Assembly (NCBI RefSeq): GCF_001182725.1
Contig: NZ_CWHU01000004.1
Location: 62,001 to 126,000, forward strand
Source of the DNA: Anaerococcus jeddahensis
Lineage (GTDB): Bacteria; Bacillota; Clostridia; Tissierellales; Peptoniphilaceae
DNA length: 64,000 nucleotides
Direction of reading: 5' to 3'
The number at the start of each line of letters is the position of its first letter. Within the stretch, counting starts at the first letter, position 1. The notes under the pieces are model-generated. The model had not been told where the DNA came from. It searched no databases and worked only from the letters and a program-made list of their open reading frames with translations. This document shows positions 7,727-56,240 of the stretch, piece after piece. The position numbers were made by a program, and so were the translations under genes.

Positions 7727-8188
7727 AGCAGGATAAATCCTACCAGAGCGTTGACAAAGTAAGATTTTAGCTAATATTTTATTTTATAATAAAAATTAAG
7801 CTACGTACCATCTCGACTAGATAAATGTGCATTGATTTTGCACATTTATCCCTAAAACTAAGTGCGAAAGCACGTAGACAAAGTAAGATTTTAGCTAATA
7901 TTTTATTTTATAATAAAAATTAAGCTACGTACCATCTCGACTAGATAAATGTGCATTGATTTTGCACATTTATCCCTAAAACTAAGTGCGAAAGCACGAA
8001 GAAGTTTGCAAAGCAAACGTGTTTTAGTGTGAGTGAAACGAACGCATGGAGAGATCTCATGAGATTTCTCCGCTCGTTGCACACGATAAATCGGGATAAA
8101 CAACCGAAATCAACGGTTATTTATCTGATAGAAATGGGAAATGTTTCTAATTTGTCAACAGTCTGAGCAGGACAAGTCCTGCTTTTTT
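7727..8188. repeat. Hairpin-chain inverted-repeat element A, with flanking terminator copies
   Basis: The element runs from the left terminal repeat CAGAGCGTTGACAAAG (7744-7759) to the right one TTTGTCAACAGTCTG (8151-8165). Inside lie successive hairpins: GATAAATGTGCA/TGCACATTTATC, GTGCGAAAGCAC, GTTTGCAAAGCAAAC, GGAGAGATCTC/GAGATTTCTCC and GATAAACAACCG/CGGTTATTTATC. An outer pair CCATCTCGA/TCGAAATGG-type stem encloses them. Left flank GCAGGATAAATCCTAC (7728-7743) and right flank GCAGGACAAGTCCTGCTTTTTT (8167-8188) are two versions of the same terminator hairpin. Without an internal 124 bp duplication the element would be 298 bp. No protein is encoded. It fills the gap between the nan operon and the symporter gene. 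Confidence 0.8.
7753..7998. repeat. 124 bp tandem duplication inside element A
   Basis: The block starting GACAAAGTAAGATTTTAG at 7753 is repeated from 7877, exactly 124 bp later, and I see no difference over the first 122 bases of each unit. It covers the left interior of element A, including the first long hairpin, so that hairpin is present twice. Confidence 0.93.
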
Positions 8189-8210
8189 ACAATTTTTATA
8201 TTTTTTCATA

Positions 8211-8258
8211 AAAAAATAAGCTTATCAAATTAATTAATAATTTGATAAGCTTATTTTT
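8211..8258 (-). terminator. Terminator of the tna symporter gene
   Basis: A near-perfect stem of about 20 bp (AAATAAGCTTATCAAATT with its complement, seven-base loop) directly follows the 8265 stop codon on the minus strand and ends in a run of T. Confidence 0.85.
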
Positions 8259-8264
8259 ATTTTA

Positions 8265-9605
8265 TCAGCCTATACCTCCAAGAACTGCCCCGGCAATTAA
8301 GGCTATTACTGCTGCTCCTACGTAAACGTATTTTGAAAGTGGATAATACCAAGATCCTATTGGTTTTTTTGCACCTTCGTTAACAGCTTTTATTGCGAAA
8401 TCTTTTCCTGCAACCCATAAGAACATTATTGCTGCTAGTGCTGCTCCAAGTGGGCAGATATAAATTGAAATTACATCCATCCATTGAGAAACTATAGGTT
8501 GAATTAATATCGCAATTACACATCCAAATATATGGATTATTAGGGTTGATTTTTTTCTTGAAAAATTAAATTTTTCTTGCAAATATGCTACTGATGATTC
8601 ATATAAATTTATTATTGAGCTTACTCCTGCAAATAATACGCAAACATAAAATATTATGCTTACTATTCTACCACCAGGCATTCCGTTTAATACATTTACT
8701 AAATAAATAAACATTAATCCAGGACCGCCTGTATCTAGTGCTGTATTTGCTGTAGCCATAGCTGGAATTATTACAAATGCTGCCATTAATGCTGCTATTG
8801 TATCAAAAATTGCTACATTGGCTGCAGATGTTATCAAGTTTTCTTTTTTTGATAGGTATGAACCATAAATTACAGTTCCTGATCCTGCTACTGAAAGTGA
8901 GAAGAATGCTTGTCCAAAAGCATATATCCAAACTTTTGGATTTTTTATTAACTCATTATCAATTGTAAATATATATTTATATCCATCTGATGAGCCTGGT
9001 ATTGTTGTAATATAAATAGCAAGAACTACAAAAAGAATGAATAAGGCTGGCATCATGATTTTATTTGATTTTTCAATTCCGTTTGAAACTCCAAGAATCA
9101 TTATTACACAACTTACAACTATTGCAACTACAATCCAAAGATTTGCTCCCATTGCTGTAGCAGTTTCAGAAAACGTTTTTCCGATTAGGTCCATATCTTG
9201 ACCCATTCCACTAAGCTCACCAGAAAAAGCCATGAAAGTATATTTAAATATCCAAGCCATTACACAAGTATAACCTATTGCAAGAGCAAGAGATCCAGCT
9301 ACAGGTATTACTCCAAGACCTTCCCCGATTTTTTTATTTCCATATTTTAATTCAGTACATTTACCAAAAGCTCTTACTGTTCCTGATTCTGTTGAACGTC
9401 CAAGAGCCATTTCTGTTATTACTCCTGTTGTAGCTATCAGAATTACAAAGATAAAATATGGAATCAAAAATGTCATTCCACCATATTGAGAAACAAGGAT
9501 AGGAAATCTCCAAATATTTCCCATTCCAACTGCAGATCCTACACATGCAAGGATAAATCCCCACTTAGACTGAAAACCGTCTCTGTTTGATATTTTATTT
9601 TCCAT
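8265..9605 (-). CDS. Neurotransmitter:sodium symporter family transporter, probable tryptophan importer
   Basis: 446 residues, about 11-12 membrane segments, with the NSS signature GSAVGMGNIWRFPILVSQYGG near the N terminus (roughly residues 19-39) where Na+ and the amino acid bind. A bacterial NSS protein next to tryptophanase in Symbiobacterium (TnaT) is a Na+-dependent tryptophan transporter, and here too the gene follows tryptophanase by 58 bp on the same strand. Tryptophan, or another aromatic amino acid, is therefore the likely substrate (inference). Start: ATG at 9605 behind GGGAG. A hairpin lies between it and the lyase gene. Confidence 0.85.
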   Translation of the reverse strand: MENKISNRDGFQSKWGFILACVGSAVGMGNIWRFPILVSQYGGMTFLIPYFIFVILIATTGVITEMALGRSTESGTVRAFGKCTELKYGNKKIGEGLGVIPVAGSLALAIGYTCVMAWIFKYTFMAFSGELSGMGQDMDLIGKTFSETATAMGANLWIVVAIVVSCVIMILGVSNGIEKSNKIMMPALFILFVVLAIYITTIPGSSDGYKYIFTIDNELIKNPKVWIYAFGQAFFSLSVAGSGTVIYGSYLSKKENLITSAANVAIFDTIAALMAAFVIIPAMATANTALDTGGPGLMFIYLVNVLNGMPGGRIVSIIFYVCVLFAGVSSIINLYESSVAYLQEKFNFSRKKSTLIIHIFGCVIAILIQPIVSQWMDVISIYICPLGAALAAIMFLWVAGKDFAIKAVNEGAKKPIGSWYYPLSKYVYVGAAVIALIAGAVLGGIG

Positions 9606-9628
9606 AACATACTCCCTAATATTATGAA

Positions 9629-9660
9629 TTTAGCAGAATCTCAAAAGAGATCCTGCTAAA
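9629..9660 (-). other. Intercistronic hairpin between tnaA and the symporter gene
   Basis: TTTAGCAGAATCTC and GAGATCCTGCTAAA form a 14 bp stem with one mismatch and a four-base loop, starting 4 bases after the tnaA stop. No T run follows, so it more likely sets mRNA stability or partial termination and lowers symporter expression. Confidence 0.6.
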
Positions 9661-9663
9661 AAT

Positions 9664-11307
9664 TTATTTTTCTTCTTCACTTGGTTCATATGGTTCTAGG
9701 AATGCGTGGAAGTGACGCATTGGTAGATTATGACCTTTAACAATTTTAATATTAGGTATTGTTGATCTATCTTCGTACAACGCTTTAACTGCTGCTATTA
9801 CATAATCCATATGTTCTTTGCTAAGTTGACTTCTATTAACTGCAAATCTAACTACGTTAGCTACTTCTTTTTGTTGTTCTGGTGTTTTTAGATCGTATTC
9901 CATTGAATAGTTTCCAAGCTCAGCTGTTCTTATTCCGTATCTTCTAATAAGTTCTACTGAGAAACCTTGTCCAGCAAAAGTTTCTGGAGCTCTTTTGTTA
10001 TCAAAGAATTCATCCATGTTGATATAAACACCGTGTCCACCTGCTGGAAGTACGACACCTTTTACTCCTGCTTTGTAGAATCCTTGAGCTAAATATTCAC
10101 ATTGTTTAACACGTGCATCTAAATATTCAAATTTTGAAGCTTCATAAAGACCTGCTGCTAGTGCCATAATATCTCTACCACTCATTCCACCGTATGAGTC
10201 ATTTCCATATGATGAAATTTGTTTTACTTTTAGTAAGATACCTACGTCAGTTTTAACTGATCCGTCTTCATTAAAGTCTGAGAATTTCTTCCAGAATAAT
10301 CCCTTATCTCTAAATGCTAAAACTCCACCCATATTTGCATGGCCATCTTTTTTAAGAGATGCTGTAAATCCATCACAGTATGAGAACATTTCTTGAGCTA
10401 TTTCATTTATAGATTTATCTTGGTAGCCTTCTTCATTTACTTTTATGAAATAAGCATTTTCTGCCCATCTAGCTGCATCAAACATATAAGGAATATCGTA
10501 TTTATGAGCAATTCTTGAGCATTCTCTCATGTTTGCCATAGATACTGGTTGTCCACAAACTGTATTATTTGTAATTGTTGTATAAACTAATGGTACATTT
10601 TCTGGTCCTAGTTTTGTAATTAACTCTTCAAGTTTTTCTGTATCCATATTTCCTTTAAAAGGATTCTTTTCATATTTACCACCTTCTGGAACTTCCCATA
10701 ATAATTCTTTATTATAAAGGTTTCTTGGAATTGAACCCATTTGTTTGATATTTCCTTCTGTTGTATCAAAGTGTCCGTTTGATGGAATTGTATAAGTTTT
10801 TCCTGGTTCTCTACTATTTAATATATTTTTTACAAGTTCGAATAATACTGATTCAGCTGCACGACCTTGTTGGATGATAAATGTGTTTGGTCTTTCCATT
10901 TGAGCAGATCCACCATTAAATAGTCCGCCTTCATATTCACATAAATAAACTTCATCCATCATTTTTTCTACGTCTTCGCAGTCGGTTCTTACTAGATCAA
11001 TTATTCTTTTTTGATCATTTCCTCTTTCAAATACATCTCTAAATGTATCTAAAAGTACATAATATCCCTTATTTCTACCATAGGATTCATCTCCTAAAAA
11101 CATTGCAGACCATTGTACATCTGTCATCGCAGTTGTACCTGAATCTGAAAGCATATCGATTGTTAGCATGCCTGCTGGGAAAGCAAATTCATTGTAGTGA
11201 GTTGCTTTTAATGCTCTTTCTCTTTGTTCAATTGTTACGTTTGGAATATTTTTTGTTACATAAGTGTAAGAATGTGGTGTAGGTACATTCAATTGGTACT
11301 TTTTCAT
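9664..11307 (-). CDS. tnaA: Tryptophanase-family beta-eliminating lyase, long form
   Basis: 547 residues, PLP-dependent. Visible features are SDSGTTAMTDVQW (55-67), IIQQGRAAES near 144-153, FDAARWAENAYFIK (276-289) and the Schiff-base lysine Lys320 in SLKKDGHANMGG. The expected reaction is tryptophan to indole, pyruvate and ammonia. E. coli TnaA has 471 residues; here about 60 extra residues sit between GDESY (72-76) and NTFIIQQGRAA (141-151), where ordinary enzymes run on directly. Tyrosine phenol-lyase is the close alternative and FDAAR does not decide between them; the NSS transporter next door favours tryptophan. ATG at 11307 behind GGAGG. Confidence 0.82.
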   Translation of the reverse strand: MKKYQLNVPTPHSYTYVTKNIPNVTIEQRERALKATHYNEFAFPAGMLTIDMLSDSGTTAMTDVQWSAMFLGDESYGRNKGYYVLLDTFRDVFERGNDQKRIIDLVRTDCEDVEKMMDEVYLCEYEGGLFNGGSAQMERPNTFIIQQGRAAESVLFELVKNILNSREPGKTYTIPSNGHFDTTEGNIKQMGSIPRNLYNKELLWEVPEGGKYEKNPFKGNMDTEKLEELITKLGPENVPLVYTTITNNTVCGQPVSMANMRECSRIAHKYDIPYMFDAARWAENAYFIKVNEEGYQDKSINEIAQEMFSYCDGFTASLKKDGHANMGGVLAFRDKGLFWKKFSDFNEDGSVKTDVGILLKVKQISSYGNDSYGGMSGRDIMALAAGLYEASKFEYLDARVKQCEYLAQGFYKAGVKGVVLPAGGHGVYINMDEFFDNKRAPETFAGQGFSVELIRRYGIRTAELGNYSMEYDLKTPEQQKEVANVVRFAVNRSQLSKEHMDYVIAAVKALYEDRSTIPNIKIVKGHNLPMRHFHAFLEPYEPSEEEK

Positions 11308-11528
11308 TTTAATGCCTCCATATAAATAGCTATGTTAATAGTTATAATTAAAACTGTACAGAGGAACCCCGGTCATTAATTTCAAAAAATTAACTAGCGG
11401 ACAGTATCCAAATTGAGAACCCCGGTTATCAAAAATGATTGTAGATTAGTGGTTAAATTTAAAAATTTCCACATATCGAAAAAAAATTGATGAGCGGTCA
11501 GCACTCCGAAAAATTCTAGAATTATCTA
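11308..11528 (-). promoter_or_regulatory. tnaA leader RNA with candidate attenuator
   Basis: About 220 nt lie between the predicted transcription start (near 11528) and the tnaA start codon. The leader first forms GAGTG/CGCTC (11506-11492), followed closely by eight T (11486-11479), a weak terminator-like structure. It then carries two copies of ACCGGGGTTC, 55 bp apart (near 11427 and 11372), and a second T6 stretch with TTAATTT/AAATTAA pairing. No T-box or known riboswitch motif is recognisable. Control of elongation or translation by tryptophan is possible but unproven. Confidence 0.45.
11394..11474 (-). CDS. Possible leader peptide upstream of tnaA (26 codons)
   Basis: An ATG frame within the tnaA leader encodes MWKFLNLTTNLQSFL followed by ITGVLNLDTVR and a TAG stop. 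Codon 2 is tryptophan, which recalls the TnaC leader peptide, but the TnaC W-FN-D motif and C-terminal proline are absent and there is no ribosome site before the ATG. A second short frame from 11372 (MTGVPLYSFNYNY) shares the TGV codons with it. Both may be incidental to the repeated RNA structure. Confidence 0.2.
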   Translation of the reverse strand: MWKFLNLTTNLQSFLITGVLNLDTVR

Positions 11529-11538
11529 TGAAATAGAT
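11516..11538 (-). promoter_or_regulatory. tna operator-like repeat 1
   Basis: On the minus strand ATCTATTTCATAGATAATT then CTAG, containing the palindrome ATCTA-TTTCA-TAGAT. It overlaps the -10 box and start point of the tnaA promoter, and a closely similar sequence lies upstream of the -35 box. Confidence 0.5.
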
Positions 11539-11563
11539 TACATCAATTATTTAACTTTGTCAA
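11535..11563 (-). promoter_or_regulatory. tnaA promoter
   Basis: On the minus strand a consensus TTGACA (11563-11558), 17 bp spacer and TAATCT (11540-11535). It is the best promoter in the region and lies between the two 23-base repeats. Confidence 0.75.
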
Positions 11564-11580
11564 GAATAAGTTTAAAAGCC

Positions 11581-11603
11581 CTAGAATTATCTGCGATATA
11601 GAC
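11581..11603 (-). promoter_or_regulatory. tna operator-like repeat 2
   Basis: On the minus strand GTCTATATCGCAGATAATT then CTAG, matching repeat 1 at 18 of 23 bases. The repeats are 65 bp apart and bracket the promoter, an arrangement typical of a repressor with two operators. No candidate regulator gene is adjacent. Confidence 0.5.
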
Positions 11604-11670
11604 ATTTTCAAAAAAATACAATTTTTGAAAACGTATGTAAATATTTTGTTGATTATGTAAAACTTAACAT

Positions 11671-11713
11671 AAAAAAAGTGGAAGCTTGAATTTTTCTTGC
11701 ATCCACTTTTTTT
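11671..11713 (-). terminator. Terminator of guanine deaminase gene
   Basis: AAAAAGTGGATGC pairs with GCTTCCACTTTTTTT across a loop of about 14 bases, 43 bp after the guaD stop on the minus strand, with a T7 tail. A- and T-runs on both sides would also allow rightward termination. Confidence 0.8.
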
Positions 11714-11755
11714 AAATTTCTTTTTAAATTTTAATGAAAAAATTTATTTTTCCTA

Positions 11756-13030
11756 TCAGAAGATTTTTACTCCTCTTACAAATTTCGAAACAACATCTTC
11801 ATCTTTTGAAATATATACTATTCTTTCTAGTCTTTGTTTTAAGTCAAATTTATCTTCTTCTAATAATTTTTCATCGTCAATAATTATTGCATCAAATTCG
11901 TATCCTTTTTCAAATGATCCGACTTTTCCAAAAAATTCTCCTCCACCCAAAGTTGCCATATAAAAGGCTTCTTCAAGGCTTAGAGGTTTTATTTTTTCGT
12001 CTAATAATCTGTATCTTAATTTTGAAACTTTTATGGCATCTGCCATAGCTTTAAATATTGATGAGTGAGTTGCCCCTGCAACATCTGATCCAAGCCCAAT
12101 TTTTTGCCCTTCTCTTAGGTATTTTCCTGCTGGGGCAATTCCTGATGTAAGGTTGGTGTTTGAATCTGGACAGTGGGCTATGAAGACTTCATTTTCTTTT
12201 ATCAAATCTTCTTCATCTTCATTTGAATATACACAATGAGCCATCACCGTCTTGTTATTTTTGCCAAATAAATCAAAAATATTGTAGGCATCTCCATAAA
12301 ATTTAGCCTTAGGAACTAATTCTTTGACCCATTCTATCTCATCCAAATTTTCTGATAAGTGGGATTGGATAGGAAGATTGTACTCATCTTTTATTTTTCT
12401 TAGTCTTTCCAATAAATCGTCAGTACATGATGGGATAAATCTTGGTGTTAAAATAGGATAGGTATTTTTATATTTTCCTTTAATTGATTCAAGCCAAGCG
12501 ATTGTAGCCTTTTCTGATTCCTTAGCATCCTTTTCTTCAAGATCTACTCCACCATTTCTGTCCATATTTACTTTTCCAACAAAAGAAACCATTTTTGATT
12601 CTTCCATCAAATCCATCAAAATTATTGTGGATTTCACATGAAGACTTGAAAAAATCACATGCCTTGTATTTGGTCCATATTTTAAATAATCTACAAATCT
12701 TTGGTAGGATTTTTTTGCATAATTTTCGTCTTTAAATTTTGCTTCACTTGGAAATGTGTAGGTATTTAGCCAATACAATAATTCTAAATCCATTCCCATG
12801 CCCCTAAAATTATATTGAGGGGCGTGGATATGAAGATCTGTAAGACCTGGACAAATTATTTTTTCTCCAAAGTCTATAACTTTTATGTCCTTGTATTTTT
12901 CATCTAATTTTTCAAAAACTCCCATTGAAAGTCCGTCTTTACAAATCAAAAAAGAATTTTCACAAAAATTTATTACGTTTTGATTTTTACTATAAATTAT
13001 ATTTCCCTTTAGGGCAAATGTTTTTGTCAT
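11756..13030 (-). CDS. guaD: Guanine deaminase (amidohydrolase superfamily)
   Basis: 424 residues from the chosen start. The metal-binding HxH is His67/His69 in DLHIHAPQYNFRG; PRFIPSCTDDLLERL, QSHLSENLDEIEW, MAHCVYSNEDE, AHCPDSNTNL and GLGSDVAGA follow in the order of guanine deaminases. QYNFRG and PRFxPSCT are guanine-deaminase hallmarks. It would turn guanine into xanthine and ammonia, feeding the xanthine pathway 10-30 kb away; E. coli guaD is part of the equivalent locus. The frame is open to 13099, but ATG at 13030 has AGGTGA in front and begins the domain. Confidence 0.9.
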   Translation of the reverse strand: MTKTFALKGNIIYSKNQNVINFCENSFLICKDGLSMGVFEKLDEKYKDIKVIDFGEKIICPGLTDLHIHAPQYNFRGMGMDLELLYWLNTYTFPSEAKFKDENYAKKSYQRFVDYLKYGPNTRHVIFSSLHVKSTIILMDLMEESKMVSFVGKVNMDRNGGVDLEEKDAKESEKATIAWLESIKGKYKNTYPILTPRFIPSCTDDLLERLRKIKDEYNLPIQSHLSENLDEIEWVKELVPKAKFYGDAYNIFDLFGKNNKTVMAHCVYSNEDEEDLIKENEVFIAHCPDSNTNLTSGIAPAGKYLREGQKIGLGSDVAGATHSSIFKAMADAIKVSKLRYRLLDEKIKPLSLEEAFYMATLGGGEFFGKVGSFEKGYEFDAIIIDDEKLLEEDKFDLKQRLERIVYISKDEDVVSKFVRGVKIF

Positions 13031-13136
13031 ATTTTCACCTATCCAAATTATGAATTTTACTATAAATATATCTTGAAATTTTAAGATATTTCCGTCCAAA
13101 ATTTCAAAAGAGATTTACACTACTATGAGGTTTTTT

Positions 13137-13164
13137 ATTATACTATTTACATTTTTTTATCCAA
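13137..13164 (-). promoter_or_regulatory. guaD promoter
   Basis: On the minus strand TTGGAT (13164-13159), 16 bp, TATAAT (13142-13137), about 107 bp before the guaD start. The rest of the divergent gap to 13266 is AT-rich with no other clear signal. Confidence 0.5.
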
Positions 13165-13266
13165 AGCTAGTTTATTCAAACAAAGTCTCATATTTGTAAT
13201 TTTTATAAATTTAAATTCTAATTCCATTAAAAAATGGGTAAATATATTAGGACTTTAGGAGGAATT

Positions 13267-14055
13267 ATGAAAAAAAGATTAAAGAACAAAAATTATATCA
13301 TTGGACTTATTATGTTTATTATTACCTTGATTTTTTCTTTTTTTGCATACAAGGGAGTATTTTTTCTCCACAAGCAAGAAGAAATTTTTAAAATATACGA
13401 AAATCCACTAATACCTATTGGTTTTAGTTTTTATATTTGGATTTTTATCTATATTTTTTCTACTCTTTTTTTGCTTTTGCCTTTTATAAAAAAGCTTTCT
13501 ATGACAAATGAGGAAATATATTATGAAAAATTGATGCCACTTTTTATTTTTTGGAATATGGCAAATGGAATTTTTTCTGTAATGACAAACAATAATTATC
13601 CCATGCCTGCTCTTATTGGAATTATGGTCTATGCTTTAATTTTAATCACTTTGATAAAAACAATTGACCAAAACAAAGATTTTTCAAAAAAATATAAATT
13701 TCTTGTAAGCTTTCCTACTGGAATTCATGGAGGCTGGGTTATTCTTTCAGTTTTTACAAGTATAATGCTTGTTTTTTCTCAAAATAAAAGCTTAGAAAAT
13801 AAATTTTTTGCCCTAATTATAAGTTTAATTTTACTAATACTTGCAAGCGCCATGGTTTTGTTTGTCTTTAAAGAAAACAAAAATTTTGGACTTATTATTG
13901 GTTTTTTGTGGGGGATTTTTGGAATTATTATAAAGCAAAACCCTTGGTCAAATTTTTCAAAGGCAAATAATATTATATTTATCGGTGCAAGTATTTTATT
14001 TATTTTTGTAGGGATATTTTCTGTTTATATTTTTAAATATTTTAAAGAAAAATAA
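13267..14055 (+). CDS. Multi-pass membrane protein, TspO/tryptophan-rich-sensory-like
   Basis: 262 residues with about seven hydrophobic segments. PIGFSFYIWIFIYIF near the N terminus and FPTGIHGGWVILSVFTSI in the middle resemble the PAGFTFSIWGLIY and FGWI blocks of long TspO/MBR-like proteins of low-GC bacteria. Their ligands and roles are poorly known, so no function is assigned. The first ATG in frame is at 13234, but ATG at 13267 sits behind a perfect AGGAGG and is preferred. Single gene, divergent from guaD and convergent with the pyrimidine phosphorylase gene. Confidence 0.6.
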   Translation: MKKRLKNKNYIIGLIMFIITLIFSFFAYKGVFFLHKQEEIFKIYENPLIPIGFSFYIWIFIYIFSTLFLLLPFIKKLSMTNEEIYYEKLMPLFIFWNMANGIFSVMTNNNYPMPALIGIMVYALILITLIKTIDQNKDFSKKYKFLVSFPTGIHGGWVILSVFTSIMLVFSQNKSLENKFFALIISLILLILASAMVLFVFKENKNFGLIIGFLWGIFGIIIKQNPWSNFSKANNIIFIGASILFIFVGIFSVYIFKYFKEK

Positions 14056-14056
14056 A

Positions 14057-14380
14057 AAAATCCTAGGATTCATACTATCTATAAGCTAAATTTTTAACCA
14101 CTTCTACCAGATAAAAAACTACCATTTGGGTTTTTATCAAGATAAACGTGTAAAAGGAGCGGAGAAATTTCATGAGATCTCTCCACAAGGTCGAGATGGG
14201 TTTTAGCGTAATTTTATTTTTAAATAACTAATAAATTACTAAGCTAACTTTGTCTAATATCTGAATCCTAGTTTTAACTAAGATTTAGAGCGTAGACAAA
14301 GTATGAATTTAAATAAAAATTAAGCTAAGTACCATTTAGCTATTTGGCTGTATGAATCCTAGCATTTACTAGGATTTTTT
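14057..14380. repeat. Hairpin element B: two partial copies between three terminator-stem copies
   Basis: Three versions of one terminator hairpin occur: AATCCTAGGATT (14059-14070, T-rich tail on minus), AATCCTAGTTTTAACTAAGATT (14264-14285) and AATCCTAGCATTTACTAGGATTTTTT (14355-14380, plus-strand tail). The first interval holds a partial element with GAGATCTCTCCACAAGGTCGAGATGGG-type sequence and a right end CTTTGTCTAATATCTG. The second holds a left end TAGAGCGTAGACAAAG and only about 50 bp more. The hairpins would stop the convergent membrane-protein and pdp transcripts. No gene in this 335 bp gap. Confidence 0.7.
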
Positions 14381-14390
14381 ATTTTATAAA

Positions 14391-21975: not shown

Positions 21976-21990
21976 AATAATAAAAATTAA

Positions 21991-22312
21991 GGACTGTGAA
22001 AGACACAGTCTCAGAGCTTACAAAATCTTTTCAGTAATTCATTAACAATTTAATAATAAATTACGACGCAACCCATCTCGACTAGATGATTGTGCCTTGA
22101 GTTGGCACAATCATCCCTAAAACTAAGTGTGAAAGCACGAAAAGTTTGTAAAGCAAACGAGTTTTAATGTTTTTGAAGCGAACGAACGGAGAGATCCAAA
22201 GAGATCTCTCGACTACGCTCGAGATGGGTTCTAGCTTTATTTTATTTTAAAATAAAATATTGCTTAAATCTATATTTTGTCGACACTCTGGTACTGTGAA
22301 ATTCACAATCCT
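21991..22312. repeat. Hairpin-chain inverted-repeat element C with flanking terminator-stem copies
   Basis: Terminal repeats CAGAGCTTACAAAATC (22012-22027) and TTTTGTCGACACTCTG (22276-22291) enclose 280 bp. The inner hairpins match element A in place but not in sequence: GATGATTGTGCC/GGCACAATCATC, GTGTGAAAGCAC, GTTTGTAAAGCAAAC and a GAGAGATC/GATCTCTC stem. The flanks are GGACTGTGAAAGACACAGTC (21991-22010) and TACTGTGAAATTCACAATCC (22293-22312), two forms of one hairpin. On the minus strand the left copy runs into TTAATTTTTATT and could end the xanthine dehydrogenase transcript. No gene in this 345 bp gap. Confidence 0.8.
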
Positions 22313-47225: not shown

Positions 47226-48345
47226 CAATGCTGCAACTACAATCGATAAGGACGAATCAGTTGCAAGGGCAGTTTATAATGCTATAAATTCAAAATCTTT
47301 TGGAAATCCATCAAGAGGAGCCTACAAGGTTAGCCTTGACGCTTTGGATTTATTGATGCAAACAAGGAAAAAAGTTGGATCTTTTTTTGGCATGGATAAT
47401 CCCCTAAATGTTGTTTTATGTCAAAACATAACTTTCGCCCTAAATTTTGTTATAAAATCACTCTTTAATAAAAGTGACCATATAATAACAAGTTTATCAG
47501 AGCACAATTCAGTTTTAAGGCCTCTTTATGATTTGGAAAAAGATGGATTAGAAATTTCTTTTATTGGAATAAAAGATGATTTTAGCCTTGATTTTGAAGA
47601 AATCGAAAATTTAGTCAAAAAAAACACCAAGGCCCTTGTTATAACTGGTGCATCAAATGTTTCAGGAGTTTTGACAGACCTTGATAAGGCTTATGAAATT
47701 TGTAAGAAAAATAATTTAAAATTAATAATTGACGGGGCCCAAGTTGCAGGATATGTACCATTTGATATAAAAAAATATGATAATTCAATATTTTTATTCA
47801 CAGGCCACAAAGGCCTTCACGCTCCCCAAGGAACAGGTGGATTTATTGTAAATGGTGATTTTGATTTTAGGCAAGTTTTTGCTGGAGGATCTGGTTTTGA
47901 TTCATTTTCAAAAACCCAACCCCATATCTTGCCAGATTTATTTGAGCCTGGAACTGCAAATGTTCATTCCTTTGCAGGATTAAAGTCCGCCATAGAATTT
48001 TTGCAAAAAAATCCTCACAAAGATATAAATAAGCTTACAAAAATTTTATATAATGGCCTAAAAGATATAGAAGGGATAAAATTTTATTCTAATATAAATT
48101 TAAAGCACGTGCCAATTATTTCATTTAATATAAAAGATATTCCTGCAAATTATATAGCAATGAAACTTTGGGATGATTATGAAATTTGTGTAAGAGCAGG
48201 CAGCCACTGTGCCCCACTTTTTCACGAAAAAATGGGAACAAAAAAACAAGGTATAGTTAGAATGAGCCTGTCATTTTATAACACAAAAGAAGAAATAGAA
48301 AAAACGATAGAAGCTGTGAAAAATATAGCAAAAGAAAGAAGCTAG
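47212..48345 (+). CDS. Cysteine desulfurase-like aminotransferase class V protein of the Se cofactor system
   Basis: 377 residues from MIYLDNAATT. The PLP lysine is in FTGHKGLHAPQGTGG and the C-terminal catalytic cysteine in VRAGSHCAPLFH. It belongs to the EF2568-type branch near yedF and selD genes. The role is likely release of sulfur or selenium from (seleno)cysteine and delivery to SelD or the Mo cofactor (inference). The frame is open to 47152, but that lies inside the DUF3343 gene; ATG at 47212 has AGAGG 10 bases upstream. The stop codon is within its terminator. Confidence 0.87.
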   Translation: MIYLDNAATTIDKDESVARAVYNAINSKSFGNPSRGAYKVSLDALDLLMQTRKKVGSFFGMDNPLNVVLCQNITFALNFVIKSLFNKSDHIITSLSEHNSVLRPLYDLEKDGLEISFIGIKDDFSLDFEEIENLVKKNTKALVITGASNVSGVLTDLDKAYEICKKNNLKLIIDGAQVAGYVPFDIKKYDNSIFLFTGHKGLHAPQGTGGFIVNGDFDFRQVFAGGSGFDSFSKTQPHILPDLFEPGTANVHSFAGLKSAIEFLQKNPHKDINKLTKILYNGLKDIEGIKFYSNINLKHVPIISFNIKDIPANYIAMKLWDDYEICVRAGSHCAPLFHEKMGTKKQGIVRMSLSFYNTKEEIEKTIEAVKNIAKERS

Positions 48346-48363
48346 GTAATCCTAGCTTTTTTG
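48341..48363 (+). terminator. Terminator of the selD operon
   Basis: GCTAGG, loop TAAT, CCTAGC, TTTTTT; the TAG stop is in the first arm. Confidence 0.85.
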
Positions 48364-48419
48364 TTTGTTATAAAATATTTTTTAGAATGCACACTCTGTC
48401 TTTTGTCCTAGTTTTGCAG

Positions 48420-49441
48420 GAGATCTCTCGACTTCGCTCGAGATGGGTAATAGTTCGCTTTTTAAATTGCTAAAGTTGTTTTTTTCTTCTATAATCGTAA
48501 ATTTGTTTTTTATTAATGAAAGTTTTTGATTTTTAGTATGATAAACGAAGTTATACCCCATCTCGAGCGAACGATAGTGAGTCGAGAGATCTCTTTTATT
48601 AGTTTTGAGTTTTATTTTAATTTCTACTTGTAATATATATCGGATTATTTTTTGAAGACTTACTCTGTCTTCTGTCTTATTTTTGCAAGAGATCTCTCCA
48701 CAAGGTCGAGATGGGTGAGTGTTTTCTATTTTTAATTGCTGAAGTTTTTAATTTTTGGTTTTAATTATTAAAATTTTTTTTAAATTGCTAATTTATTATA
48801 AAAAAGTGAGTTTATTTATTTAAATTTTATTTAAATCTATTCGAAGTAAAAAAGTATATCCTCACATAACCCATCTCGAGCGAACGATAGTGAGTCGAGA
48901 GATCTCTTTGTTGATTTTGTCTTGTATTTTATTTTATATTTTTAATATATGTTGGATTATTTTTTTAATGCACACTCTTTCTTTTATCTTAGTTTTTGCA
49001 AGAGATCTCTCCACAAGGTCGAGATGGGTGAGTATTTGCTTTTTTTAATTGCTGAAGTTTTTAATTTTTGGTTTTAATTATTAAAATTTTTTTTAAATTG
49101 CTAATTTATTATAAAAAAGTGAGTTTATTTATTTAAATTTTTTTAAATTTATTCGAAGTATAAAAGTATATCGACATCTAACCAACCTCTATCAAATATA
49201 ATTGGTAAAATTGATTATCTAAAAAAAGATTTTTTAATATTGAAATTTTATTTAAATCTATTCGAAGTAAAAAAGTATATCCTCGCATAACCCATCTCGA
49301 GCGTAGTCGAGAGATCTCTTTTGTTGATTTTGCCTTGTGTTTTATTTTATATTTGTAATATATATTGGATTATTTTTTTAATGCACACTCTTTCTTTTGT
49401 CTTAGTTTTTGCAAGAGATCTCTCCACAAGGTCGAGATGGG
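48420..49441. repeat. Array of seven alternating GAGATCTCTC...CGAGATGGG palindromes
   Basis: Seven copies of a 28-38 bp palindrome lie at 48420-48447 (+), 48557-48594 (-), 48688-48715 (+), 48870-48907 (-), 49001-49028 (+), 49291-49319 (-) and 49414-49441 (+). Orientation strictly alternates. The plus copies read GAGATCTCTCCACAAGGTCGAGATGGG or have CGACTTCGC in the middle. The DNA between is also repeated with a 313 bp period (48688 to 49001; 48557 to 48870), and 413 bp for the last step. The 1,245 bp gap 48346-49590 contains no credible gene. The same palindrome is the core of elements B and C. Confidence 0.85.
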
Positions 49442-49496
49442 TGAGTGTTTTCTATTTTTAATTGCTGAAGTTTTTATTTTTTTATTTTATAAAAAC

Positions 49497-49560
49497 AAAA
49501 AAAAAAGAGAATGTTTCAAAAATATGAATAGTCATCATTTTACAACAGTCTCTTTTTTTA
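49497..49560 (-). terminator. Terminator of the moa-mod operon
   Basis: On the minus strand AAAGAGACTGTT pairs with AACATTCTCTTT (one mismatch, loop about 30) and is followed by a T-rich tail of about 10 bases, 31 bp after the modC stop. Confidence 0.7.
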
Positions 49561-50625: not shown

Positions 50626-51292
50626 GGGCCTTCTCCTTTTCTTTTGTATCTTCCAAGAAATTTATGGCTACAAGGACAATAAATGAAATTAAAACATTTA
50701 TCATAACCCACTTATAAGCTATCGCATCTTGACCGATTCTCCAAAATTGATAAACTGTTGTTGAAATTGTTGCAGTTTTTCCTGGAGTGTAGCCGCTTAC
50801 CATTGAAGTTGCTCCATATTCTCCAAGAGCTCTTGCAAAGGATAAAACTAAACCTGCCATTACTCCTTTTTTGCAATTTGGCATCAAAACTTTCCAAAAA
50901 ATCCATGTGTTTGACTTGCCCAATGTTTGGGCTGCATAGGTTAAGTTTTCGTTATAGGCTTCAAATGATCCTCTTGTTGTCCTATACATTAATGGAAAGG
51001 TAACTATAACTGTTGCAAAAATCGCTGAATACCAATTCATAATAAGAGGGAATTTAAAATATTCTACAAAAATTTTCCCAAGTGGCGAATTTGGTCCTAA
51101 AATTTTAATTAGAAAAAATCCTACAACAGTAGGAGGCAAGACCAAGGGTAGGGTTAGTACCACATCTATTGCCCCCTTTACTTTTGCAGGTAATTTTTTT
51201 ATATAGTAGGCTGCAAATATACCAAGGAAAAAAATTATTACCGATGATATACTTGCAATCCTTATTGAATTATATAAAGGATATAAGTCCAT
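50618..51292 (-). CDS. modB: Molybdate ABC transporter permease
   Basis: 224 residues, five to six membrane segments, with the coupling motif region GSFEAYNENLTYAAQTLGKSN and FARALGEYGATSMVSG, the classic ModB/CysT EAA loop. It forms the membrane channel for molybdate. Normal length. It starts 2 bp after the modA stop with no clear ribosome site, so translation probably depends on modA, and overlaps modC by 8 bp. Confidence 0.92.
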   Translation of the reverse strand: MDLYPLYNSIRIASISSVIIFFLGIFAAYYIKKLPAKVKGAIDVVLTLPLVLPPTVVGFFLIKILGPNSPLGKIFVEYFKFPLIMNWYSAIFATVIVTFPLMYRTTRGSFEAYNENLTYAAQTLGKSNTWIFWKVLMPNCKKGVMAGLVLSFARALGEYGATSMVSGYTPGKTATISTTVYQFWRIGQDAIAYKWVMINVLISFIVLVAINFLEDTKEKEKAHA

Positions 51293-51294
51293 GA

Positions 51295-52146
51295 TTATTT
51301 ATTTAATGGCTTAAATCCATATTTATCTAAAATTTCAGATGCTTTTTTGCCTTTCAAAAATTCTAGATATTTTTTGCCTTCTTCTGGATTTTTAGAATTT
51401 TTAAGTAAAGCTGCTGGATAAATTACTTTATTTTCAAGCATTGAATCATCAGCTACTGCTACTGTTTCAAGTCCTGCTGTTTTTGCATCAGTTTTATAAA
51501 CTATTCCACAATCAGCTGCTTTTTCACTTACCCATGATGTAACTTCTTTTACGTTTGAACCTAAAGTTACCTTATCTTGGATTTTATCCCAAATTCCTAA
51601 ATTTTTAAGAATTTCTTCTGAATATTGTCCTACTGGAACATCAGAATTTCCAAGAGCGATTTTTTCTACATCATCTTTTTCAAGATCTTTAAAATCTTTA
51701 ATTCCTTTTTCATTTCCTTCTGCTACTGCAAGAGTTACTTCGTTTTCTAGCAAATCAAATCTTGTGTCTTTATCAATTTTGTCTTCTTTTTCAAGTTCAT
51801 CCATTTGTTTTTGAGCTGCTGAAACAAATACATCACAATCTGCTCCTGAATCAATTTGAGTTTTTAAAGTTCCTGATGAATCAAAGTTAAAGGTCAAACT
51901 AAGATTTGGATTTTCTTTTTCAAATTCTGTTTTTAATTCTTCCAAAGCTTCTGTCATAGAAGCTGCTGCAAATACTGTAAGTTCTTTTTTATCCTTTGTG
52001 TCTGTAGCCGCATTTGATTTTGCTACATTTGAATTTGACATAGGTTCATTTGAATTGTTGTCATTTTTATTGTTGTTAGCACAACCTGCTGTTCCGATTA
52101 ATAGTGCTCCTGCTAGAGCTGTCATTGCGATTTTTTTAAAATTCAT
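51295..52146 (-). CDS. modA: Molybdate-binding lipoprotein
   Basis: 283 residues. A lipoprotein signal (MNFKKIAMTALAGALLIGTAGC, lipobox GTAGC with Cys22) is followed by an Asn-rich linker. The binding domain has LTVFAAASMTEALEEL, FDSSGTLKTQIDSGADCDVF and GNSDVPVGQYSEEIL, typical ModA. Anchored outside the membrane, it passes molybdate to ModB. It overlaps the MOSC gene by 11 bp. ATG at 52146 behind AGGAGAAG. Confidence 0.93.
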   Translation of the reverse strand: MNFKKIAMTALAGALLIGTAGCANNNKNDNNSNEPMSNSNVAKSNAATDTKDKKELTVFAAASMTEALEELKTEFEKENPNLSLTFNFDSSGTLKTQIDSGADCDVFVSAAQKQMDELEKEDKIDKDTRFDLLENEVTLAVAEGNEKGIKDFKDLEKDDVEKIALGNSDVPVGQYSEEILKNLGIWDKIQDKVTLGSNVKEVTSWVSEKAADCGIVYKTDAKTAGLETVAVADDSMLENKVIYPAALLKNSKNPEEGKKYLEFLKGKKASEILDKYGFKPLNK

Positions 52147-52594
52147 TTTCTTCTCCTAATATTTTAATTTCATCTCCAGTTTTTATTACGCCTTCTTTAA
52201 TTACTTTTGCAAATATTCCCTCATAAGGCATAATACACTTTCCAACACTTTGTTTTATGGCGCAACCTTTGTGACATTCTTTACCAATCTGACTAACTTC
52301 CAAAACACAATCGCCAATTTTTAATTTTTCTCCTACAGGAATTTCATGCAAAATTATTCCTTGAGTTGTAATATTTTCTGCAAAATCCCCAAAATCAAAT
52401 TTGCGATTTTCATTTTCCATTTTTCTAATTGATTCTTCTGCCAAAAGGCTCACTTGCCTGTGCCACTTTCCTGCGTGGGCATCATTTTCTAGCCCAAAAT
52501 CTTTTTTAAATAAACCCTGACCTATCTGTTCCTTTCTCACCCCTTTCGTTTTTGAAATATTTATTGATAAAACTTTTGCTTTAATGGTGTCCAC
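52136..52594 (-). CDS. MOSC domain protein
   Basis: 152 residues. It is a stand-alone MOSC domain: SINISKTKGVRKEQIG, a metal- or sulfur-carrying region with ECHKGCAIKQSVGKCIMPYEG (three cysteines) and GIFAKVIKEG. Such proteins next to mogA and moaC are thought to deliver sulfur for metal-sulfur centres, including Moco sulfuration. The start is GTG at 52594 with AAGGAGA in front, overlapping the mog-type gene by 14 bp. Its stop overlaps modA. Role inferred from family. Confidence 0.85.
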   Translation of the reverse strand: MDTIKAKVLSINISKTKGVRKEQIGQGLFKKDFGLENDAHAGKWHRQVSLLAEESIRKMENENRKFDFGDFAENITTQGIILHEIPVGEKLKIGDCVLEVSQIGKECHKGCAIKQSVGKCIMPYEGIFAKVIKEGVIKTGDEIKILGEENEF

Positions 52595-53072
52595 TATTAT
52601 CTCCTTCTAATATATCTAAGCCATGGCCTAAAAATGGCAAAATTCCTTCGACACTTTCTGTGACAGCCTTGGGAGAGCCTGGCAAATTTATTATTAAAGA
52701 ATTATTTTTTATTCCAGAAACTGCCCTTGATAGGGCCCACATATGAGTTTTTTCTTTTGAAATTAATCTAATTGCCTCGCTTATACCTGGCGTTTGTTTT
52801 TCAATTACTTTTAAACTTGCCTCTGGTGTATTGTCCCTTTTTGAAAGTCCTGTTCCACCAGATGTTAAAATTAATTGGATATTTTCATCAACCAATTTAT
52901 TTAATTCATTTTCAATATTTTCCAAATCGTCATTAATTATAGACTTATAAACCATCTTATAATTTTCTGGCATTATTTTTTGACAAGCGTCAATGCAACC
53001 GTCCTTGTTTTCGCCAGTAGATCTGGTATCAGAAATTACCACAAAGGCGTAATTATAAATTTTCTCTTTCAT
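52581..53072 (-). CDS. mog: Molybdopterin adenylyltransferase/MoaB-like protein
   Basis: 163 residues of the MogA/MoaB fold: VISDTRSTGENKDGCID, the phosphate-binding LILTSGGTGLSKRDNTPEA and INLPGSPKAVTESVEGILP. It binds molybdopterin and probably activates it by adenylation before Mo insertion. MogA and MoaB are hard to tell apart by eye; MoaB-type is possible. It overlaps moaC by 20 bp and the MOSC gene by 14 bp. ATG at 53072. Confidence 0.87.
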   Translation of the reverse strand: MKEKIYNYAFVVISDTRSTGENKDGCIDACQKIMPENYKMVYKSIINDDLENIENELNKLVDENIQLILTSGGTGLSKRDNTPEASLKVIEKQTPGISEAIRLISKEKTHMWALSRAVSGIKNNSLIINLPGSPKAVTESVEGILPFLGHGLDILEGDNSGHH

Positions 53073-53523
53073 AAAGCCCTGATTTTCCTCCTGATTTTTT
53101 TACTAAATATATATCTTTTATGGTCATAGACTTATCAAGAGCCTTGCACATATCATAAACTGTCAAAAGTCCAGCAGAAACTCCCGTCAAAGCTTCCATT
53201 TCAACCCCAGTTTTTCCTTGGCACTTAACTTTCACCTCACAAAATAATAAATTTCCCTCAAAATTAAAATCTACATTTATTCCATTTAATAAAAGTGGAT
53301 GGGCCATTGGAATTATTGAAGATGTATTTTTTACAGCCTGGATTGCTGCAACTTGGGCAATAGCAAGGACGTCTCCCTTTTTTATTTTTTCATTTTTTAT
53401 GGCTTCTATGGTTTGATTTTTAAGTTCAATTGAACCCTTGGCTATGGCTTCTCTTTGGCTGATTTCTTTTTTTGAAATATCAACCATTTGCCCCCTGCCG
53501 TTTTTATCTAAATGCGTAAACAT
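53053..53523 (-). CDS. moaC: Cyclic pyranopterin monophosphate synthase accessory protein
   Basis: 156 residues with the standard MoaC blocks: MVDISKKEISQREAIAKG, IPMAHPLLLNGINVDF (His in the active site) and GVEMEALTGVSAGLLTVYDMCKALDK, which carries Lys/Asp near the end. With MoaA it turns GTP into cPMP. The ATG abuts the moaA TAA, and the ribosome site GGAGGA is the moaA Gly-Gly codons. Confidence 0.95.
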   Translation of the reverse strand: MFTHLDKNGRGQMVDISKKEISQREAIAKGSIELKNQTIEAIKNEKIKKGDVLAIAQVAAIQAVKNTSSIIPMAHPLLLNGINVDFNFEGNLLFCEVKVKCQGKTGVEMEALTGVSAGLLTVYDMCKALDKSMTIKDIYLVKKSGGKSGLYERENL

Positions 53524-54471
53524 TTATCCTCCTATCCTATACATAGATTCTTTTATAATTTCATTTTCCAAATGATGTCTTTGAGGCTTTTTCATAAGAG
53601 CCTCATCAATCAATTTTTCTATATCTTTATTTTCTCTTATGGCCTTTTTCAAATCTATTTGTAAATCCGAATGAAGACAAGGTCTAATTTTCCCGTCAGC
53701 TGTAAGTCTTAATCTGTTGCAAGTAGAGCAAAACTTGTGGCTTAAAGGCTCAATTAGTCCTAATGTATAATCAAAATCTGGGACCTTGTAAAGGCTTGTT
53801 GGCGAATGAGTATCAGGATTTTCTATTGGAATAAGATTCAATTTTTTTATAATCTCATCACTTGAAATGAACTTATCTTTTGAAAAATCTGCCGTCCCAC
53901 CTATTGGCATAAGCTCAATAAATCTTAATTGTAGGCCATTTTCTTTGGAAAATTTTATAAGATCATAAATTTCCCCATCATTAAATCCTTTGATTAAAAC
54001 AGTATTTATTTTTATGGCATATCCAAAATTTTTGGCGTATTTTATGGCCTCAAGAACTTTTTCCAAATCCCCGCCTTGGCTCATCATTTTATATTTTTCA
54101 GAATCTAGGCTATCAAGAGAAATATTTAATCTTTTTAGTCCATTTTCCCACAAAATTTCTGCCTTTTCTTTTAAAAAATATCCATTTGTAGTCATTGCCA
54201 AATCTTCTAATCCATCAATTTCAGCAAGCATTTTTACAAGACTTTCTACATTTTTTCTAACCAAAGGCTCGCCGCCTGTAAGTCTTATTTTTTTTATGCC
54301 TTTTTTTACAAAAATTTTGCTAATTTCATTTATCTCTTCTAAAGTCAGCATATCTTCATGATTTTTTTTACAAGAAATACCATCTGGCATACAATATTTG
54401 CACCTATAATTGCAACGGTCTGTAAGAGAAATTCTCAAATAATCTATTTTTCTTTCGTATCTATCTAGCAT
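53524..54471 (-). CDS. moaA: GTP 3',8-cyclase (radical SAM)
   Basis: 315 residues. The N-terminal radical-SAM cluster is CNYRCKYC (19-26); LTGGEPLVRK follows. The C-terminal second 4Fe-4S site is FCSTCNRLRLTADGKIRPCL, and the chain ends in the conserved Gly-Gly (MYRIGG). It makes the first intermediate of molybdopterin. It leads moaA-moaC-mog-MOSC-modABC, all overlapping or within a few bases. moaE, moaD and a full moeA are not in the window. ATG at 54471. Confidence 0.96.
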   Translation of the reverse strand: MLDRYERKIDYLRISLTDRCNYRCKYCMPDGISCKKNHEDMLTLEEINEISKIFVKKGIKKIRLTGGEPLVRKNVESLVKMLAEIDGLEDLAMTTNGYFLKEKAEILWENGLKRLNISLDSLDSEKYKMMSQGGDLEKVLEAIKYAKNFGYAIKINTVLIKGFNDGEIYDLIKFSKENGLQLRFIELMPIGGTADFSKDKFISSDEIIKKLNLIPIENPDTHSPTSLYKVPDFDYTLGLIEPLSHKFCSTCNRLRLTADGKIRPCLHSDLQIDLKKAIRENKDIEKLIDEALMKKPQRHHLENEIIKESMYRIGG

Positions 54472-54550
54472 ATAATCAACTACTTTCTATATTTATAATA
54501 TACTATTTTTTTAAAATAAAACATTTTCACAAAGTATTTCAAGAATTAAA

Positions 54551-54634
54551 ATTAAAAAATAAAAGTGAACTTGCCTAAGACAAATTTTTACCAAATAATA
54601 AAAATAAAAATTTGCCCTTTTAAAACAAGTTCAC
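54551..54634 (-). terminator. Terminator-like hairpin after second DUF3343 gene
   Basis: GTGAACTTG (minus) pairs with CAAGTTCAC, enclosing a second pair CAAATTTTTA/TAAAAATTTG; on the minus strand it is followed by TTTTATTTTTT. It lies about 80 bp before the moaA promoter region. The remainder of the 54472-54841 gap holds a short open frame of about 34 codons without a start, perhaps a gene remnant. Confidence 0.55.
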
Positions 54635-54841
54635 AATTAGCCTAAAGCATTTCTATAAAAGCTGCAATTTTTGCAATATTCATCCTATATTGTCTGAGAT
54701 TTTTTTTAAATTCATATAAGAAGGTTTTGTATTTTCTACTACAAGTCTAATAGATTTTTTAACCTGTACATTTTTATAACTTTCTTAAAAATATTTATAC
54801 AATTAGAAACTATTAAAATTCCCCTTAAAAATTTTCTTAAT

Positions 54842-55063
54842 TTATATATCTAAAACTTTTAAAATTTTATATGAAATATTTTCCTCATCGAGGATTTTTT
54901 TTATTTTTTCAAAATTTTTGCTTTCAAAGCTAAAAGCTAGACCACAGCCTGATCCAAATTCTTCTGGAACTGGGATCATCTCGCCTTTTATATTTTTATT
55001 TTTACAAAAATTTTCCATCAAAATAGCCTGGCTTGTCGTTTCAAATCCAGCAACAAGTTTCAT
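54842..55063 (-). CDS. DUF3343 putative Se/S carrier protein 2
   Basis: 73 residues starting MKLVAGFETTSQAILMENF, with PVPEEFGSGCGLAFSFESK as the family core; only one cysteine remains in GCGLA, while the paralogue at 47 kb has GCGLC. Function is assumed to be the same carrier family, perhaps serving the Mo cofactor operon beside it. ATG at 55063 with GGAGGAAAAA in front is used, four codons after an upstream ATG. Divergent from the GntR gene. Confidence 0.75.
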   Translation of the reverse strand: MKLVAGFETTSQAILMENFCKNKNIKGEMIPVPEEFGSGCGLAFSFESKNFEKIKKILDEENISYKILKVLDI

Positions 55064-55125
55064 TTTTTCCTCCATTATATCTATGTAAAGTATAACATAC
55101 CACTTTTAGTATTTCAATAAAACGA

Positions 55126-55153
55126 TTGTGCAAAAATATATTTCTGTTATAAT
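55126..55153 (+). promoter_or_regulatory. GntR gene promoter
   Basis: TTGTGC (55126-55131), 16 bp, TATAAT (55148-55153), 34 bp before the ATG. Confidence 0.6.
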
Positions 55154-55187
55154 ATTTTTATATGAAACAATTGAAAAAGAGGAATCT

Positions 55188-55901
55188 ATGAGTGAAAAAG
55201 ATAAAAATAAAGTTAAGATTAAAAAAATTAGCAGGACTTTTGTAAAAGATGAAGCTTACAATTTGCTTGCAAAAAAAATTATAAATGGAGAGCTTAAACC
55301 TTGTGAAAGACTTAGGGTTCAAGAACTTTCAGATGATTTGGGAATTTCTAGAACTCCAGTAAGAGAAGCCTTGTTACAACTTGAAAGCGAGGGGTTAGTC
55401 ATGACCAAGGCAAATCGCTGGACCATTGTTGCTCCAATTAATCCAGGCGAAGCAAAAGATATTTATCCAATAATTTATAGTTTGGAAGAGCTTGCTCTTA
55501 TTGAATCTTTCGAAAAAATCGATGAAAAATTTTTAGAAAAGATCGAAGATTTAAATGAAGATATTAAATATTTTCACAGAAAAAATGACCAAATAAAAAC
55601 TATAAAAAAAGACAATGAATTCCACAACGCTTTTATTGAACTTTCTGGAAATGTAGAAATAAAACCAATAGTCGACAAGCTCAAAAGAAGAGTTGAAAGA
55701 ATGGAAATTTATTTTTTTGAAACAGGCGAAGAAAATTTCACAACTTACAATGAGCATATGGATATAATTAACGCCTTAAAAGAAAAAAATCTTGAAAAAG
55801 CAAGAGCTGCACTTGTAAAAAATTGGCAATCAACAATAGATACCATAGAAAATCTTTCCAAAGATATGGAATTTAAAGATCTAGAAGATCAAATAAAATA
55901 A
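55188..55901 (+). CDS. GntR-family transcriptional regulator with FCD domain
   Basis: 237 residues. The winged helix (about 14-75) has LRVQELSDDLGISRTPVREALLQLESEGL; the all-helical FCD ligand domain follows (SLEELALIESFE, NEFHNAFIELSGN with metal-type His, and NEHMDIINALKEKN). FadR/FCD regulators respond to small organic acids. Its position between the Mo/Se gene blocks suggests it may control the purine or cofactor genes, but this is a guess from location. ATG at 55188 with AAGAGG in front; the frame is open upstream to 55128, which covers the promoter. Its terminator is split by element D. Confidence 0.85.
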   Translation: MSEKDKNKVKIKKISRTFVKDEAYNLLAKKIINGELKPCERLRVQELSDDLGISRTPVREALLQLESEGLVMTKANRWTIVAPINPGEAKDIYPIIYSLEELALIESFEKIDEKFLEKIEDLNEDIKYFHRKNDQIKTIKKDNEFHNAFIELSGNVEIKPIVDKLKRRVERMEIYFFETGEENFTTYNEHMDIINALKEKNLEKARAALVKNWQSTIDTIENLSKDMEFKDLEDQIK

Positions 55902-56240
55902 GGACTTTTAAAAAGTCCCAGAGCGTAGACAGAGTCTAATTATTAAGAATTATTAGTAATTTAGAATTAAATTACTAATAACCCATCTCGACTAGATAAA
56001 TGTGCACTGATTTTGCACATTTATCTCTAAAACTAAGTGATAAATCACGAATGAGTTTGCGAAGCAAAGGTGTTTTAGTGCGAGTGAAACGAACGCACGG
56101 AGAGATCTCGTGAGATTTCTCGACTCACTACGTACGATAAATCGGGATAAACAACCGAATAAACGGTTGTTTATCTGCTCGAAATGGGAAAATTTTTAGT
56201 TTGTAAACAGACTGAGGACTTTTGAAAAGTCCTTTTTTTT
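55902..56240. repeat. Hairpin-chain inverted-repeat element D with flanking terminator copies
   Basis: Terminal repeats CAGAGCGTAGACAGAG (55919-55934) and TTTGTAAACAGACTG (56200-56214) bound 296 bp. Inside are GATAAATGTGCA/TGCACATTTATC, a GTGATAAATCAC hairpin, GTTTGCGAAGCAAA, GGAGAGATCTCGTGAGATTTC and GATAAACAACCG/CGGTTGTTTATC. The left flank GGACTTTTAAAAAGTCC starts at the GntR stop codon; the right flank AGGACTTTTGAAAAGTCC is followed by T8. So the GntR terminator is present twice, once on each side. No gene in this 344 bp gap. Confidence 0.85.

Follow-up and report, generated by a model that had tools for sequence, protein, structure and literature searches.

Gene-less mobile elements lying between two copies of their target hairpin in Anaerococcus, and a likely IS1182-type mobiliser

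We analysed a 64,000-nucleotide stretch of the Anaerococcus jeddahensis genome (contig NZ_CWHU01000004.1, positions 62,001 to 126,000; hereafter the window, G000:C4:62001-126000, G000 being the source genome of 1.90 Mb in five contigs). The window carries three short elements with terminal inverted repeats, A, C and D, each of which sits between two copies of a hairpin specific to its locus (Table 1). A first-pass annotation made from the sequence alone had described this arrangement, and direct reading bears it out. The coordinates it gave for A and D stand, whereas C ends at 22290 and is 279 bp long, not at 22291 with 280 bp. The internal duplication it noticed in Element A is a tandem duplication of 124 bp at 7749-7996. 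At a further place, site B, three related hairpins surround two element remnants, with remnant ends at 14249-14263 and 14286-14300. Within the 64-kb window alone, the end pattern at three mismatches gave 20 matches compared with a chance mean of 15.9, which is not above chance, and an Rfam scan of the window returned a tRNA as its sole match.

Table 1 Elements and flanking hairpin copies in the window (window coordinates)
Feature	Position	Strand	Basis
Element A, left target-hairpin copy AGCAGGATAAATCCTAC	7727..7743	+	Direct repeat with 8166-8183, score 10.0 (C4:69744)
Element A, 422 bp, ends CAGAGCGTTGACAAA / TTTGTCAACAGTCTG	7744..8165	+	Sequence reading, genome-wide end search
Element A, right hairpin copy AGCAGGACAAGTCCTGCT, then T tract	8166..8183	+	Sequence reading
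Site B, decayed double site, related hairpins at 14059-14070, 14264-14285 and 14355-14376	14059..14376	.	Sequence reading
Element C, left hairpin copy AGGACTGTGAAAGACACAGTCT	21990..22011	+	Sequence reading
Element C, 279 bp, left end degenerate, right end TTTGTCGACACTCTG	22012..22290	+	Sequence reading, genome-wide end search
Element C, right hairpin copy GTACTGTGAAATTCACAATCC	22291..22311	+	Sequence reading; empty single-hairpin site in congener G007 (L362)
Element D, left hairpin copy AGGACTTTTAAAAAGTCC	55901..55918	+	Starts at the end of open reading frame 55128-55901, a GntR gene according to the first-pass annotation
Element D, 296 bp, ends CAGAGCGTAGACAGA / TTTGTAAACAGACTG	55919..56214	+	Sequence reading; query of the genome search
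Element D, right hairpin copy AGGACTTTTGAAAAGTCC, then T tract	56215..56232	+	Empty single-hairpin site in congener G006 (L315)

Across the whole of G000, Element D as a query matched 110 pieces, and the end pattern with at most one mismatch occurred 54 times in forward and 57 times in reverse orientation, compared with 6 and 2 for a reversed control. Pairing ends with at most three mismatches in total, at allowed lengths, within the stretches fetched yielded 52 non-overlapping elements, so that the search of the rest of the genome suggested by the first-pass annotation raised its three copies to at least 52. Element C is not counted here, since the mismatches in its left end exceed the limit. 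We detected a matching flanking direct repeat (score of at least 9) in 42 of the 52 paired elements, whereas the left flank of one locus reached that score with the right flank of another in 4 of 2652 swapped pairs. By length, 19 paired copies fall at 170-179 bp and 13 at 250-259 bp; A and D are longer, and three copies measure 1.7-1.9 kb owing to an IS110 passenger. Short, gene-less, present in many copies and bounded by terminal inverted repeats, the family has the traits of miniature inverted-repeat transposable elements (MITEs).

The two hairpins at a locus can differ in detail: at C5:206439 they share a stem and differ in the loop, and at C2:28671 one copy is one base longer. Stem positions at which the two copies have diverged in G000 amount to 32 changed pairs. 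Pairing is lost in one copy at 25 of them and in both copies at 1, and is kept at the other 6, where the change is two-sided in 2 and one-sided in 4. This is a weak sign of compensatory change, and we make no claim of selection on both copies. Many targets are terminator-like, as the first-pass annotation had proposed, but one element (C4:9223-9393, L074) is inserted in GTTTGCTTTGCAAAC, the internal hairpin of another element, and for this reason we take the target to be a palindrome, whether or not it serves as a terminator. Known or suspected tandem arrays of the form hairpin-element-hairpin-element-hairpin lie at G000:C3:169192-169632, at C3:164183-164754 and at site B; they could have arisen by unequal recombination, or when a further element entered a hairpin that had already been duplicated.

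For six loci we searched 31 genomes of the genus with the outer flanks and read the sites at which both flanks lie close together. Among the matches listed, five of the six loci are found without the element in at least one congener, which has a single, recognisably matching hairpin between the same flanks. These are Element D (C4:117919), empty in L315 with the single hairpin AAAGGACTTTTGAAAAAGTCCTTT; C5:1122398, empty in L317-L320; C5:635973, empty in L321-L324 and, more diverged, in L325-L326; C5:248585, empty in L327-L329; and C5:95800, empty in L330-L333 and L343. The C5:1122398 site of L340 likewise holds a single hairpin, and farther along L340 another element occupies a hairpin. At the sixth locus, C5:951473, the empty site in L334 has one hairpin, of altered sequence. 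Other candidates had one unlike hairpin each at the Element D site (L316 and L337), were filled in those genomes too (L335 and L336) or were uninformative (L341, diverged; L338 and L342, runs of N; L339, longer and with no end found). Locus C of the window likewise lacks the element in congener G007 (L362), where there is a single hairpin. Because congeners with the same flanks and without the element have one hairpin, we conclude that insertion duplicates the hairpin, a target duplication that the empty sites display as expected for a MITE. Together with the copy number, these single-hairpin sites, which the first-pass annotation had proposed to look for and which include loci C and D, agree with its view of a non-autonomous mobile element that makes a hairpin-long target duplication.

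Two of the window loci also have a history in congeners. At locus A, L366 carries an element that starts with the opposite end and adjoins the same hairpin, and the same terminator has therefore likely been hit repeatedly. At locus C, a different decayed insert (AATGCTAAGAATATCATGCG...) in L363-L365 splits the very hairpin, a terminator, in which Element C sits in G000. The related inserts in L367 and L368 have CAGA...TCTG ends and hairpin copies.

A transposase gene with matching ends, also envisaged by the first-pass annotation, is present in congeners as an IS1182-type gene, although none was found in G000. In a set of relatives, 27 of 61 genomes have matches to PF13751 (25 above the curated cut-off), and CAGA... 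ends inside a hairpin duplication were seen at 4 of the 30 PF13751 loci fetched (L175, L177, L180 and L202). The ends of L177 and L202, CAGACTGTAGACAAA and CAGAGCGTCGACAAA, are the same unlike pair (CAGACTG and CAGAGCG) as those of the gene-less elements; both ends of L175 are of the CAGACTG kind, with AGTCTAACTATTATAGTTAGACT on both sides. The end pattern is present in 33 of the 61 genomes, single matches there being near control level. These loci have a PF13751 DDE transposase between matching ends and relatives on plasmids named 'IS1182 family transposase', which places them in IS1182. The mobiliser of the gene-less elements is thus likely to be an IS1182-family DDE transposase, which would act in trans, as suggested by the like ends and the target habit that the elements share with IS1182 copies in congeners.

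How general hairpin duplication is around IS1182-type genes was read from a scan of named isolates and metagenomes that returned 80 loci, 74 of which were tested with anchored ends; the other six (L254, L255, L256, L262, L275 and L276) are mostly partial matches. A looser hairpin score was uninformative against shuffled flanks, which pass at 0.52 and 0.69, and we used a centred-dyad test instead. A flanking direct repeat of at least 10 bp was found at 52 of the 74 loci. These repeats are 16-52 bp long (mean 25.8, s.d. 6.7) and identical in both copies at 51 of the 52 loci; their length follows the palindrome and is not confined to the 17-22 bp given in the first-pass annotation. The best dyad is exactly central in all 52 repeats, compared with 3.9% of 2080 shuffles, and symmetric positions are paired in 86% of cases compared with 31% in shuffles. 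The number of stem pairs correlates with repeat length at 0.97. At least five of the eight bases after the right copy are T in 37 of the 52, and at least five of the eight before the left copy are A in 32. At L223 the first end found has the same hairpin as the right side, and this locus may be composite.

Duplicating copies occur in Clostridium, Peptoniphilus, Anaerococcus, Bacillus, Oceanobacillus, Paenibacillus and Cellvibrio, and on plasmids of Enterococcus, Staphylococcus and Providencia. Seventeen plasmid loci were picked by hand among the 100 matches listed, and nine of them have palindromic repeats of 19-30 bp. Among the nine are two copies of ISEfa7 (L359 and L360), whose 20- and 23-bp palindromic direct repeats resemble those of the present family. 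ISEfa7 and other IS1182 plasmid elements named by NCBI have the same kind of end, CAGACTGTAGACAAA, and carry their own gene, unlike the gene-less elements. Two further ISEfa7-type loci, L346 and L352, have no repeat, a third, L347, has no clear right end, and L355 also falls among the plasmid loci with no repeat or no clear end; L356 and L361 have unlike hairpins on their two sides. A good but unlike hairpin on each side was also observed at L224, L230, L240 and L260, and such loci could mark genome rearrangements; we infer that they are the residue of recombination between two copies.

ISCfr1-type elements (L350 and L351), whose transposase is about 27-28% identical to the query, have other ends, ATTCTGTTGAAAAAGTAG; their direct repeats do not exceed 4-6 bp, and the hairpin is not duplicated. 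They fall outside the duplicating group in a tree for which 60 loci were submitted and 10 skipped owing to short or broken reading frames; among the resulting 50 rows, which do not include IS1272, 44 duplicating or two-hairpin rows split from six outgroup rows with support of 98/99. The more distant IS1182-type elements L187 and L204, which come from the same order, have 9-bp direct repeats. The L187 repeat is off centre: it takes in the loop and a single arm of a terminator-like hairpin.

The first-pass annotation knew of no described family with this behaviour. The family can be placed with IS1182, and hairpin targeting within IS1182 is in print with the opposite outcome, deletion. According to PMC4923244 and PMC5678879, IS1272 and TnSha1 of staphylococci, which belong to IS1182, resemble the present elements in targeting stem-loops that share no primary-sequence consensus and are in part terminators. 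A review by Siguier et al. (2015 according to PMC4923244) is cited in both papers for some IS1182 members targeting palindromes. IS1272 replaces or deletes the stem-loop without target duplication, whereas the present elements duplicate the whole of it, as do 52 of the 74 IS1182-type loci. We found no report of hairpin-long duplication by IS1182 elements in the titles and abstract openings listed by searches of the open-licence literature.

Taken as a whole, we consider it probable that these non-coding mobile elements lie between two copies of their target hairpin as a consequence of IS1182-type insertion that copies the hairpin. A transposase complex of fixed geometry produces a fixed stagger, and textbook target duplications are constant in length. 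A repeat of 16-52 bp centred on the dyad suggests that the palindrome is extruded as a cruciform, the target that we infer, and that strand transfer takes place at its 5' feet. A palindrome that folds out would bring its two 5' feet close together at a four-way junction whatever the length of its arms. Joining of the element's two 3' ends at these feet would leave one whole stem-loop strand on each side, and copying of each strand would then duplicate the whole hairpin. This route was drawn as a hypothetical alternative for IS1272 ('pathway b', 5' feet, duplication) in Fig. 13 of Wan et al. (2017, PMC5678879); the route proposed there for IS1272 is joining at the 3' feet, with removal of the hairpin. 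On balance we favour the further idea that a clade of IS1182 transposases reads DNA shape and not sequence or fixed spacing, both transfers taking place at the four-way junction, such that target secondary structure sets the length of the duplication.

Several observations weigh against this interpretation. In G000, 10 of the 52 elements fall below the score used for a matching hairpin pair; they include decayed copies, related but diverged hairpins and unlike flanks, and not all are explained. Copies lacking the flanking duplication, which the first-pass annotation had named as damaging to its proposal, therefore do occur, and they limit the rule without overturning it. Similarly, 22 of the 74 IS1182-type loci lack a matching pair, for reasons that include truncated contigs, one lost end and hairpins that differ between the two sides (as at L224, L230, L240 and L260) and that do not account for all of them. 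Most of the 30 PF13751 loci in the set of relatives lack CAGA... ends at the mismatch limit used. In G000 itself, neither a PF13751 match (E ≤ 0.001) nor a match to the IS1182 query (E ≤ 1) was found, the latter in a search without a positive control there; that the gene-less copies of G000 were moved in trans by IS1182 would thus have to be reconciled with a genome in which no IS1182 was found. No likeness between the elements and the insertion sequences beyond the end repeats was noticed, no formal comparison having been made. The perfect palindrome stops at the repeat in 24 of the 52 duplicating loci and continues 1-9 bp outwards in 28, from which it follows that the cut is at or slightly inside the foot. 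The repeat begins with A in 50 of the 52 (and ends with T in 44), and a local sequence preference therefore also acts. The tree outgroups are few and long-branched. Finally, the ISfinder family table reportedly gives long direct repeats for IS1182 and may already record long repeats.

An ordinary DDE transposase might act near terminators with a loose, variable stagger, selection then keeping the insertions with a working hairpin on both sides. The frequent terminator-like targets, with their T tracts after the right copy, would fit such a history, as insertion at other places might do harm. Such selection, however, would not centre the dyad in every one of the 52 repeats or tie stem pairs so closely to repeat length, and the element in a hairpin inside another element sits where termination is not obviously at stake; we regard this explanation as unlikely. 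Somewhat less doubtful, though still improbable, is the same IS1182 route acting on hairpins in exposed single strands, at a replication fork or in a transcription bubble, in place of a double-stranded cruciform. Single-stranded hairpins are sites for other bacterial recombinases, and the sequence products would be alike if both strands folded. Duplication of a whole palindrome needs symmetric transfer on both strands, which a cruciform offers directly; the data here fit both targets alike.

That the hairpins belong to the element, or were tandem hairpins already present when the element entered, is scarcely credible: most copies do have hairpins on both sides, but the hairpins are not the same at all loci, as the swapped-pair control makes plain, and where congeners lack the element the site has one hairpin, not two. 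Equally hard to sustain is mobilisation by an IS110/IS1111-type (RuvC-like) transposase that resolves the cruciform. Its appeal comes from four full-length copies in G000 (L061, L062, L063 and L134) that contain an IS110-type gene between the element ends, three of them between hairpin copies; PF01548 and PF02371 were found in the one IS110-type protein scanned. Members of IS110/IS1111 that target repetitive extragenic palindromic sequences or attC resemble the present elements in their palindromic or structured targets. However, a related IS110 unit in congeners G018 and G005 (protein identity 55-57%) is bounded by ends of its own (TTTAGTACCATAAA... / ...AGCAGGTTT) and occurs in unrelated places, and the unit with like ends in G000 is found at a single CATTT/CGAG site in the interior of the element in all four copies. 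The elements are thus not bounded by the ends of the IS110 unit, and the duplication also occurs around IS1182 genes. In PMC11187229 and PMC11208160, moreover, IS110/IS1111 elements are described as RNA-guided and as making no target duplication as a rule, the former calling such duplications uncharacteristic. We therefore rejected the IS110 gene as mobiliser; judged by its sequence context, the unit is a second mobile element that landed in the first.

If IS1182 transposases of this clade do read shape, they would constitute the first DDE transposition system with a documented structure-measured duplication, and a hypothetical branch of the 2017 IS1272 model is now a documented pattern. With a duplication that varies threefold in length and equals the centred palindrome, the extrusion of cruciforms in living cells becomes a cause of insertion-site choice that can be tested. 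The system would also be self-preserving, since insertion gives back a terminator on each side: because the right copy keeps the T tract and the left copy the A tract, termination would remain intact in both directions and insertion would be nearly harmless. This suggests how about 50 copies could accumulate in 1.9 Mb of genome with genes and terminators left unbroken. For annotators, the signature is hairpin - CAGA...TCTG - hairpin.

Two minor observations concern other repeats. The element family seems to serve as a target for the IS110-type unit. At 48300-49500 in the window, three tandem-like units of about 310-420 bp contain CCCATCTCGAG...GAGATGGGT modules that are also present inside the elements; with possible related ends, CACACTCTTTCTTTTGTC, these units may be another repeat family or decayed relatives.

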